From positions 124,001 to 188,000 of the forward strand of contig NZ_CP036343.1 of the NCBI RefSeq assembly GCF_007746795.1: 64,000 nt of DNA. Reading direction: 5' to 3'. Below are positions 9,586 through 61,174 of this stretch, piece by piece; the stretch's first letter is position 1, and every line of letters starts with the position of its first letter. The notes beneath the pieces were generated by a model. That model was not told where the DNA came from. It did no database searches and was given only the letters and a program-made list of their open reading frames with translations. Source of the stretch: Gimesia algae. GTDB lineage: Bacteria > Planctomycetota > Planctomycetia > Planctomycetales > Planctomycetaceae. The position numbers were made by a program, and so were the translations under genes.

Positions 9586-9652
9586 GACACCAGATACGCT
9601 TGATACCCGATCCGGGTGGCCTGGGAGATGCTACAGTCACTCCGGGAACAGG

Positions 9653-25594: not shown

Positions 25595-26645
25595 AACGGT
25601 AGAACCGACAAGAAAACGCAGAGTTAGCTATCTCGTGTTGTTTGTGATTGGTGTCAGCATTTTTATTTATCTGGTAGATTCCAGAATCTTTTTTCCCTTG
25701 CAAAGTCTGTTTTATCTCGTCGCGGGGTGGATTCTGTTTTTACGACGTGTCATCCCACAAGTCACTGTGCCCGTCTCCGGTCTGGTGACAGCCCTGGTCG
25801 TCGCTGCGATCATGGCGTTACTGATTCAACTGCTGGGCGGCATTATTCTGCGTCGTCTGCAGCAGCAAAATTCGATCCCGGTTCCGAACAAGTGGAAAAT
25901 ACGCTGGACGTTCGCTTTGATTGTCTTCCTGGTGATCTCTTTTACCGGCGGCTTTGCCGTGGTGGGATTGACGCATCAGGGGCTCTGGCTGGCAGCCAGT
26001 GAAAAAATAGTCGATTACAATATTTCAGCTATATCGAAACGCAGTCAATCAAAAAATAATCTCAAGCAGATTGGTCTGGCACTCTACAATTATCAAGAGG
26101 CAACGCAGGTCCTGCCCGGCGGAGGTTACTTCAACAGCGCGGGGAAACCCCAGCATGGCTGGGTAGCACAACTGTTGCCTTATCTGGATCAGCAGGCTTT
26201 GTATCAGACCATTGATTTTCATGAGCCTTGGACTGCAGACATCAACCGGGAACCTTATCAGACGGCACTTCCTTTGCTGATTAATCCGGGTCTCAGACGA
26301 CAAGACCACCCCACAGGTTACCAGCCCGTCGACTACGCGGCCAATAATCACATATTCAATGTGAATACCAGTATGAAGCTGGATATGATGAAAGAGGGGG
26401 CTTCGAATACAATTCTGGCAGGTGAAGTCAATACGGGGATCAAAGCCTGGGGTGATCCCACCAACTTTCGTGATCCCAATTTGGGAATCAACGCCAGCCC
26501 GCAGGGCTTTGGCAGCCCTTATTTCGGGGGGGCCCATTTTCTGCTGGGCGACGGTAGCGTCAGGTTTATTTCGGAAAACATCGATCCGCGAACTTTGAAA
26601 GCTCTGGCCACTCCCGATGGAAACGAACCAGTCGGCGAATATTAA
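25584..26645 (+). CDS. Polytopic membrane protein with DUF1559-like head, paralogue 1
   Basis: 353 aa, ATG at 25584, start inside the preceding gene. Instead of a pilin leader it has three to four transmembrane segments (about 15-32, 38-55, 66-88, 108-130), then a short helix KRSQSKNNLKQIGLALYNYQEATQVLPGGG and the complete DUF1559 head with its C-terminal block FGGAHFLLGDGSVRFISENIDP...PVGEY. The motif AWGDPTNFRDPNLGIN is identical in layout to the next gene. This keeps the pseudopilin head but uses a helical bundle anchor. Part of a three-gene operon. Confidence 0.82.
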   Translation: MKNETVEPTRKRRVSYLVLFVIGVSIFIYLVDSRIFFPLQSLFYLVAGWILFLRRVIPQVTVPVSGLVTALVVAAIMALLIQLLGGIILRRLQQQNSIPVPNKWKIRWTFALIVFLVISFTGGFAVVGLTHQGLWLAASEKIVDYNISAISKRSQSKNNLKQIGLALYNYQEATQVLPGGGYFNSAGKPQHGWVAQLLPYLDQQALYQTIDFHEPWTADINREPYQTALPLLINPGLRRQDHPTGYQPVDYAANNHIFNVNTSMKLDMMKEGASNTILAGEVNTGIKAWGDPTNFRDPNLGINASPQGFGSPYFGGAHFLLGDGSVRFISENIDPRTLKALATPDGNEPVGEY

Positions 26646-26673
26646 ATCGCCTGGAGACAGACAGGAACCAGTC

Positions 26674-27762
26674 ATGGAGTCCGAACAGAACGATAAAGCA
26701 GAGGTAACTCCGGCCGAGCGCTGGATTGCGATCAGCATTTCCATATTGTTCGTATCGTTCTTCTTGATCCTGATGGGATTGATCTCTCCGTTTCGAATTG
26801 TTTTTCTGCTGTGTGTGGGCTGGACTTCATTCATTCTGCGAACGTTGTCCCGGCTGACGATTTCACCGTCTCTGACACTCATGTTTCTGTCATCCCTGCT
26901 GCTGTTTGCCGTTGGCTTTCATTTCTATTGTCGCCGCATCAAAGGCAAGGTGACTGCTGAGTCGGCTGGAGTCACGTCGTGGCAGAAACGCTGGAGCTTC
27001 TCGCTGGTGACGATGTTTCTGCTGCTGGCCGTCAGTGGCATTTGTGTGATCAGCGTCACGCATCAGCTGTTCTGGATGGCAACAACACAAGACAGGATCT
27101 TTATAAGGTTACACATGGGAGGCGCAGGCGAAGCCGCCAGGCGGAGTACGTCCAAAAATAATCTCAAGCAGATCGGTCTGGCGATGCATAATTACCACGA
27201 ATCTGCTCGCCGGTTTCCTATGGGTGGCACCTTCGATAAGACAGGGCAGCCGCAACACAGCTGGATCACACAGCTGTTACCTTATCTGGATCATAAATCT
27301 CTGTATGATCAGATTGACTTTAATCAGAGTTGGACGGCCGCCGATAACAGAGAGCCGTTTGAAACCAATTTCATCCTGCTGCAAAGCCCGGGGATGCCTT
27401 ATGATTTTACCGAAGAAGAGGGGGATGCGGCAGGATACAAACCCGCGCACTATGCTGCCAACAGCCGTGTCTTATCCGCTAATTCAGGCATGGATTTACG
27501 TAAAATAAAAGATGGCAGTTCCAATACGATTCTGGCTGGCGAAGTCAGATCGGGCATCAAAGCCTGGGGCGATCCCACCAACTTTCGCGATCCGACAGAG
27601 GGCATCAATCGCAGTCCGCGTGGCTTCGGCAGTAAGTTTAAAGGGGGTACTCACGTACTGCTGAGTGACGGCATGGTACGCTTCGTTTCTGAAGACATCG
27701 ACCCCAGTGTCTTGAAAGCCCTCAGCACACCCAACGGCGGCGAACCGGTGGGCGAGTTTTAA
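26674..27762 (+). CDS. Polytopic membrane protein with DUF1559-like head, paralogue 2
   Basis: 362 aa from ATG 26674 (AGGA at -11), chosen over an in-frame ATG at 26617 because its length and N-terminus then match paralogue 1. Four hydrophobic segments (about 18-35, 42-60, 68-85, 112-135) are followed by GEAARRSTSKNNLKQIGLAMHNYHESARRFPMGG and a DUF1559 C-terminus GGTHVLLSDGMVRFVSEDIDP...PVGEF. Shared blocks with its neighbour (LAGEV, GIKAWGDPTNFRDP, GIN-SP-GFGS) show a recent tandem duplication. The residual GEAARRS retains the tail of the pilin-like helix found in classic DUF1559 proteins. Stop codon TAA overlaps the stop of the opposing gene within TTAA (27759-27762). Confidence 0.82.
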   Translation: MESEQNDKAEVTPAERWIAISISILFVSFFLILMGLISPFRIVFLLCVGWTSFILRTLSRLTISPSLTLMFLSSLLLFAVGFHFYCRRIKGKVTAESAGVTSWQKRWSFSLVTMFLLLAVSGICVISVTHQLFWMATTQDRIFIRLHMGGAGEAARRSTSKNNLKQIGLAMHNYHESARRFPMGGTFDKTGQPQHSWITQLLPYLDHKSLYDQIDFNQSWTAADNREPFETNFILLQSPGMPYDFTEEEGDAAGYKPAHYAANSRVLSANSGMDLRKIKDGSSNTILAGEVRSGIKAWGDPTNFRDPTEGINRSPRGFGSKFKGGTHVLLSDGMVRFVSEDIDPSVLKALSTPNGGEPVGEF

Positions 27763-37907: not shown

Positions 37908-38147
37908 TTCTTGTTAATTAGATCCTTAAAATGTTTTTTTGTTCATTATCTCAGAGACTGTCGTTGTCGTCTGAAATGCAGAAACCTTAATTCATACAAT
38001 CGACCAGTTGAAATTTAGTTCTTCACATAAAATCGGCAATCTTCGCTTATTCGGAAAAGATTGACATTATTTGAGGGCTACACCTGCATTATTTTAAACC
38101 ATGCTAACGGTCAGACCGTTCTGATTCAGAGAGGGACCATCAAGCGG
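37908..38147. other. Intergenic stretch between divergent genes, nothing recognised
   Basis: AT-rich spacer between the FliN-like gene (minus) and the repeat element ahead of the AIM24 gene. A perfect TTGACA (38061-38066) is present, but the nearest -10-like hexamer is 20 bp away and weak. Confidence 0.35.
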
Positions 38148-38241
38148 GACTGTGTCCAGTTTTACTGTAGCGTCTCCAGGGCCATTTAGACCGAGTATAT
38201 TAGATTGAGAGACGTTATAGTTATCTGTGATGCGTTCTAGC
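38148..38241 (+). repeat. Dispersed ~94-bp element, copy A
   Basis: This 94-bp stretch is repeated in reverse orientation at 60955-61049 with about 85% identity by hand alignment. The first 31 bases (GACTGTGTCCAGTTTTACTG followed by TAGCGTCTCCA) are identical, as are GGCCATTTAGACCGAGTAT and TGAGAGACG. Its arms TAGCGTCTC (38168-38176) and GAGACGTTA (38209-38217) form a 9-bp hairpin with a 32-nt loop. The end of the element is 28 bp upstream of the AIM24 start. It is probably a leader RNA structure, a promoter-linked element or a mobile short repeat. Confidence 0.8.
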
Positions 38242-60954: not shown

Positions 60955-61049
60955 GCTGGAGTGCATCACATTTAACCAATAGCGTCTCTCAGTCTATGAT
61001 ACTCGGTCTAAATGGCCTTGGAGACGCTACAGTAAAACTGGACACAGTC
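60955..61049 (-). repeat. Dispersed ~94-bp element, copy B
   Basis: Reverse-strand copy of the element at 38148-38241, 95 bp. The hairpin arms are TAGCGTCTC (61021-61029 on the minus strand) and GAGACGCTA (60980-60988), perfectly complementary, with a 32-nt loop as in copy A. In copy A the right arm reads GAGACGTTA, so one G-C becomes a G-U pair and pairing is kept. The remainder of 60850-61174 shows no gene. Confidence 0.8.
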
Positions 61050-61174
61050 TAGCTCGAACGGGAATGCGTTTCAGTAAAAAAGTAGCAGGATTGTCAGGAT
61101 CTGCCAAAATTTATAAAAGTGCAGGAAGCCGCACTTCAGATGGAGAGTCACCGTTTAAGTCTTCAACTAACGGT

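Follow-up and report, generated by a model that had tools for sequence, protein, structure and literature searches.

The window, a 64,000-nucleotide stretch of the Gimesia algae genome (G000), contains two copies of a short element with a hairpin, each of which stands in front of a gene and in the same orientation as that gene. The question raised by this locus is what such a pair represents; a leader RNA, a regulator site and a short mobile repeat had all been proposed in the original prediction. Based on the sequences analysed, the repeat is very probably a MITE, a non-autonomous DNA transposon, of the IS630/Tc1-mariner type. It is by accident that both window copies stand upstream of, and in sense with, a gene: no such rule holds across the copies placed.

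The copies at 38148-38241 (+ strand) and 60955-61049 (− strand) match in 83 of 95 aligned columns (87%) and their initial 31 bases are identical; the prediction of two related elements with a shared 31-base start and 9-bp arms is thus borne out. In copy 1 the arm TAGCGTCTC (38168-38176) pairs with GAGACGTTA (38209-38217), and in copy 2 TAGCGTCTC (61029-61021) pairs with GAGACGCTA (60988-60980). The gene downstream of copy 1 is AIM24 (Pfam PF01987, E = 2.5e-72), at the predicted distance of 28 bp. The gene downstream of copy 2 is PhyH (Pfam PF05721, E = 6.1e-35); the element does precede it, at 81 bp (ATG 60873) or 105 bp (ATG 60849) depending on the start chosen, and not at the 106 bp given before. 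The features of the window are as follows:

38148..38237, + strand: putative MITE copy 1, body of 90 bp, in front of AIM24; family consensus matched in 85 of 94 columns, flanking dinucleotides included
38148..38176, + strand: left terminal inverted repeat of copy 1, 29 bp, containing the arm TAGCGTCTC
38209..38237, + strand: right terminal inverted repeat of copy 1, 29 bp, containing the arm GAGACGTTA
38146-38147, + strand: left flank of copy 1, TA expected, GG found
38238..38239, + strand: right TA flank of copy 1 (presumed target-site copy; the site is without the element in relatives)
60959..61049, − strand: putative MITE copy 2, 91 bp with one base inserted, in front of PhyH; consensus matched in 88 of 95 columns, flanks included
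61050..61051, − strand: left TA flank of copy 2
60957-60958, − strand: right flank of copy 2, TA expected, CA found
9602..9651 (stitched 133602-133651), − strand: possible truncated relic of the MITE, model positions 4-53 only, E = 0.0017

The two terminal inverted repeats, which are the transposon ends, appear as a 'hairpin' when viewed in one strand. The right terminal inverted repeat is, in the family consensus, the end that matches the ends of an IS630 element (see below).

Copy number and anatomy of the family

A 23-base core of the repeat has 243 matches at up to three mismatches in the 7.93-Mb genome G000 (111 forward and 132 reverse); the reversed-pattern control has none. The number refers to core matches, a few of which come from truncated or interrupted copies, and at 92 bp each they would make up about 0.28% of the genome. 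BLAST of G000 yields at least 44 matches among those listed (40 of 284 candidates scored), with E values between 3e-34 and 4e-29 for the 41 that rank next elsewhere in G000. Given these E values and the 243 core matches against none in the control, the repeat is far beyond chance. The search of the genome and its relatives for further copies, suggested at the outset, thus returns many. The core is matched in all 17 genomes of the genus, with counts of 243, 143, 134, 40, 36, 27, 22, 22, 21, 18, 9, 8, 3, 1, 1, 1 and 1. In a wider set, the repeat is present in 18 of the 59 genomes searched: G000, 16 congeners and one genome of another genus of the same family, where the match is weak (E = 2e-5). 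A 29-base core, searched in named genome records, is found in 23 stretches (17 from Gimesia MAGs, five from Planctomycetaceae and one from Planctomycetota). No match to the repeat was obtained from plasmid and phage collections in a distant-mode search.

The consensus was derived from 136 copies of G000 and 75 copies of related genomes, leaving out those which cover fewer than about 60 model positions or lie near a locus end. Both sets yield the same sequence: TA, a 90-bp body (GACTGTGTCC...GATGCGCTC) and TA. The terminal inverted repeats are 29 bp long, imperfect and gap-free; on the + strand, the 29 outermost consensus pairs comprise 19 Watson-Crick pairs, six G-U pairs, no A-C pair and four other mismatches, and the 16 inner ones five Watson-Crick, three G-U, three A-C and five other pairs. 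Mean conservation across the 136 copies is 0.94 at the left end, 0.86 and 0.85 in the middle and 0.90 at the right end, the left-end value being inflated by the many copies that were fetched via the left core. Free of this bias is a set of 30 copies from contiguous stretches (20 from G000 and 10 from relatives), with values of 0.90, 0.85 and 0.84, and 0.87, respectively. Complete copies with TA on both sides number 65 of the 136; C or T precedes the left TA in 60 of these and G follows the right TA in 56. The right end of the element reads CTAG.

Placement of the copies and tests for a fold

Gene context was read from codon-usage gene calls, not from a published annotation, in DNA that is 84% coding by these calls. 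Almost all G000 copies with a readable context are intergenic (119 of 120); a further 16 of the 136 have no readable gene context and might conceal copies inside genes. Among the 119 intergenic copies, 50 stand upstream of a gene start in sense and 64 in antisense (p = 0.22). The shared downstream orientation of the window pair is therefore not a property of the copies placed. The proposal of a regulator site is not supported. Copies between convergent genes are in excess (26 of 119, where random positions in noncoding DNA give 9.8%; p = 8e-5), and those between divergent genes are short in number (21 of 119, against a random 29.6%; p = 0.003). An unbiased set from 848 kb agrees: all 20 copies are intergenic, nine in sense and ten in antisense.

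A cis-regulatory leader RNA (riboswitch-like or an RNA thermometer) common to AIM24, PhyH and other genes would account for the position of both window copies, upstream and in sense, and for their folding; the balance of sense and antisense copies and the excess between convergent genes speak against it. The + strand of copy 1 does fold better than its shuffles (−29.1 kcal/mol, z = −3.3; z = −1.9 for copy 2), a result which any inverted repeat would show. Moreover, wherever the two 29-bp consensus ends mismatch by a transition, the pair is G-U on the + strand, in six of six cases (two-sided p = 0.03). Selection on an RNA was considered on the basis of this asymmetry and rejected, the test on individual copies being negative. 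In a profile alignment of 187 distinct sequences with up to 12 gaps, taken from 211 copies, single changes at consensus Watson-Crick pairs led to G-U in 113 cases and to A-C in 98 (+ strand, p = 0.34); the counts are 57 and 51 when only rare variants are taken, and 17 and 23 in the 30 contiguous-stretch copies. Paired cells amount to 4214, against 4205 ± 6.5 in 200 shuffles, and compensatory cells to 18, against 12.2 ± 3.1 with a shuffle maximum of 21, i.e. there is no stem covariation beyond the 200 shuffles. An Rfam scan of the window returned no family at the gathering score. The copies decay without visible selection on the fold. The leader-RNA reading is largely refuted, and we regard it as most improbable.

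The sites in related genomes bear on the same point. AIM24 and its upstream neighbour occur without the repeat in G008 and G012, a context kept in the absence of the supposed leader. G001, G005, G009 and G013 have one core match each per whole genome, located elsewhere, and hence the repeat is missing there at both AIM24 and PhyH. In G006 the AIM24 site (L083 2255-2555) carries a strongly decayed copy, whereas the G000 copy is near consensus and the 2-kb region matches at 86%; gene conversion, independent insertion or selection would all explain the fresher copy.

Both the unequal decay at AIM24 and the uneven placement could be taken to mean that some MITE copies were later taken up as transcription terminators or mRNA-stability elements, in the manner reported for ERIC. 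An excess at convergent 3' ends and a shortage at divergent 5' ends would suit such a use. The same placement, however, is given by purifying selection against insertion into promoters, the copies themselves bear no sign of selection on the fold, and the unequal decay concerns one locus, where gene conversion or independent insertion could explain it. We consider such uptake rather unlikely.

Insertion sites and the IS630 partner

For the comparison of sites, 848 kb of G000, containing 23 copies, were compared with 400 kb of G008. For 14 of the copies, these 400 kb did not provide matches to both flanks. Of the nine sites with both flanks, six are empty by the 92-bp unit (the 90-bp body and one copy of TA), one is occupied and two are unreadable. 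Four of the six empty sites are shorter by exactly 92 bp, one is off by 2, and one is off by 1, this last being weaker evidence with 132 flank bases unaligned. In the reverse direction, six of eight distinct G008 copies have both flanks in G000: the site there is empty by one unit in four cases (one off by 2), and the other two have extra bases in G000 (+10 and +19), the +10 site with an apparent end remnant. Among three G014 copies, one is missing from both G000 and G008, the difference being one unit less 1, and the stretches of the other two align too poorly to be read. A single TA occupies the insertion point at two of the empty sites, 309990 and G008 371348; the one at 119592 has TATA, and at 227519 the relative has CA. 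An insertion therefore consists of the 90-bp body and a duplication of TA. Six of the seven readable G000 copies are absent from G008, where the flanks share about 82-95% identity; this is most simply explained by recent insertion, the alternative being loss in G008.

These sites also distinguish the MITE from a palindrome mobilised as a single strand, such as REP with its RAYT/Y1 transposase, or an integron attC-like recombination site. Short, palindromic, intergenic repeats in high copy and in head-to-tail arrays would be expected of such systems as well. The TA on both sides, the 92-bp difference at empty sites and the ends in common with a DDE-type IS630 element argue against them; REP and attC elements are not known to make TA duplications. 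An origin of this kind appears extremely improbable.

The partner was reached by scanning the genus for genes of DDE_3 transposases and then searching for their ends. A 1.02-kb IS630 element was found in G016 (L273) and G001 (L274). At both of its ends, this element matches the right end of the MITE at 24-25 of 27 bases, against a best match of 16-19 of 27 in ten shuffled 20-kb control loci. The left end of the MITE matches the same IS630 ends at 17-18 of 27 where listed, within the control range, and truncated IS630 relatives at 19 of 27. With a left end at only 17-18 of 27, the MITE is a relative of the IS630 element and not a simple internal deletion of it. When the IS630 element was compared by BLAST with the G000 DNA examined, the 15 best rows were MITE right ends only (28 bases at 93%). 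Two overlapping frames of the element match HTH_Tnp_IS630 (PF01710) and DDE_3 (PF13358) above the cut-offs. At their overlap in L274 (1369-1417) there is a run of eight A, a pattern that would fit programmed frameshifting.

A full-length open second frame was found by protein search in two of the 17 genus genomes, G001 and G016, which have one and 18 core matches, respectively. Truncated transposase copies are present in G012, in G013 and at a second place in G001, and G008 contains a 30-residue remnant; G012 is a draft of about 80 contigs, and a full transposase could be absent from the assembly. G000 has no match to the second-frame protein at E ≤ 1e-6 (nine candidates scored), and the protein search gave no full-length matching transposase in the three repeat-richest genomes (134-243 core matches). 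Across the class, 66 of 297 genomes contain relatives of the transposase at E ≤ 1e-30. The ends of two DDE_3 hits in G000 do not match the MITE. An IS630 copy of G000 (L080/L301) was rejected as the parent: with 17 of 29 bases, its ends are no closer to the MITE than those of unrelated loci. An IS5-type parent, considered from the CTAG preference, was dropped after the IS630 ends had been found.

Longer copies with the MITE left end and a different interior were also sought. There are eight such places in four of the 17 genomes and none was recognised as autonomous, which is weak evidence of absence, as the filter passes about 42% of unrelated interiors and needs a near-exact left end. By reading, MITE copies of ordinary or altered form account for seven of them; the eighth (L207) has a left end alone, beside which lie two long open reading frames that, as read, do not resemble transposases.

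Taken together, the copy number, the TA flanks, the 92-bp empty sites and the IS630-like ends support the short mobile repeat among the original proposals. An IS630 transposase would bind the inverted ends, excise or copy the element, and insert it at TA with a preference for Y-TA-G. As its right end reads CTAG, each copy would offer new target sites, which would explain head-to-tail arrays of period 92 such as the triple at 5078042 in G000. Intergenic copies would persist because insertions elsewhere are lost, and would then decay without detectable selection on the fold. As no full-length matching transposase was found in G000, its copies are probably either stranded at present or mobilised by an unrecognised transposase.

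Three results count against the assignment to an IS630-type MITE: the repeat-richest genome lacks a matching IS630 protein at the threshold given above, the genomes with the open second frame carry only one and 18 core matches, and the left end is as distant from the IS630 ends as stated. A full-length partner in the same genome is common, yet not required of a MITE. It is improbable, in our view, that the MITE bursts in lineages without a transposase of their own and keeps one end unlike the IS630 ends found. Its spread could be helped by the folded single strand (RNA or DNA) of a master copy, which might, for instance, recruit an unrelated transposase or escape the cleavage of a perfect palindrome; such a role may be considered because the left end is best conserved among the copies aligned and the transition mismatches are all G-U on one strand.

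Known relatives and neighbouring repeats

According to the review PMC2229807, RUP (repeat unit of pneumococcus), a MITE of IS630-Spn1, is a 107-bp repeat with 108 intergenic copies, a TA target, IS630-Spn1-like ends and stops in all six frames. The Gimesia repeat shares with it, by description and not by sequence, the short length, intergenic position, TA target and IS630-type end, and it fits an ordinary mobile repeat of the RUP kind. It differs from RUP, as described there, in its host (Gimesia, Planctomycetes), in the core matches of its richest genome (about twice the RUP copies), in closely matching its IS630 partner at one end only, and in that the three genomes richest in the repeat yielded no full-length partner. 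Correia/NEMIS and ERIC are described in the same review as short TA-flanked MITEs with stem-loop transcripts, for which IS partners had either not been sought or not been found, and an effect on mRNA stability is reported there for ERIC (PMC2229807). The Gimesia MITE is likened to these by description; unlike them as described there, it has one end closely matching those of an IS630 partner. For the mechanism, the model is ISY100 of Synechocystis (IS630/Tc1/mariner), whose transposase strongly prefers TA and works on terminal inverted repeats (PMC2170065 and PMC6400869). This is again a likeness by description, ISY100 being a full-length element and the Gimesia repeat a MITE. Judged by titles and abstract openings, in a scope that leaves most subscription journals outside, no publication on such a Gimesia repeat was recognised among those listed.

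What had appeared as a shared hairpin before two genes becomes a genus-wide transposon family, and such repeats in Planctomycetes should not be taken for leader RNAs. The interest lies in the fact that no full-length partner was found where the repeat is most abundant: 134-243 core matches in three species without one, against one or 18 in the two with one. This contrast within Gimesia can be used for asking how bacterial MITEs outlive, or manage without, their transposase.

Other mobile sequences were observed around the MITE. An IS5-like insertion, named by reading (L080 540-1470; ends TAGAGG..TCCGAAAAC), apparently lies within an IS630 transposase gene of G000. Sequences like its ends adjoin the CTAG right end of two MITE copies (right flanks, L007 and L010), which suggests that MITE ends are also targets for the IS5-like insertion sequence. 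There is also a second dispersed repeat of about 105-110 bp, flanked by CTAG, which begins with TGGAGTGTCATTTTTA and ends with GCTTGACAAAGCA. Its sites include G000 795441-795543 and 388305-388327, and L013, L020, L240 and L241 among others. Its ends are matched 26 times in G000, and 10 of the 17 genus genomes contain matches, the control pattern giving one match each in G002 and G003. Six of its 13 copies in the G000 DNA examined directly adjoin the 92-bp MITE or sit inside it at CTAG. Finally, window positions 26040-27762 contain two diverged tandem copies (258 nt at 71% and 59 nt at 78%, at a spacing of about 1.1 kb), probably a duplicated gene.
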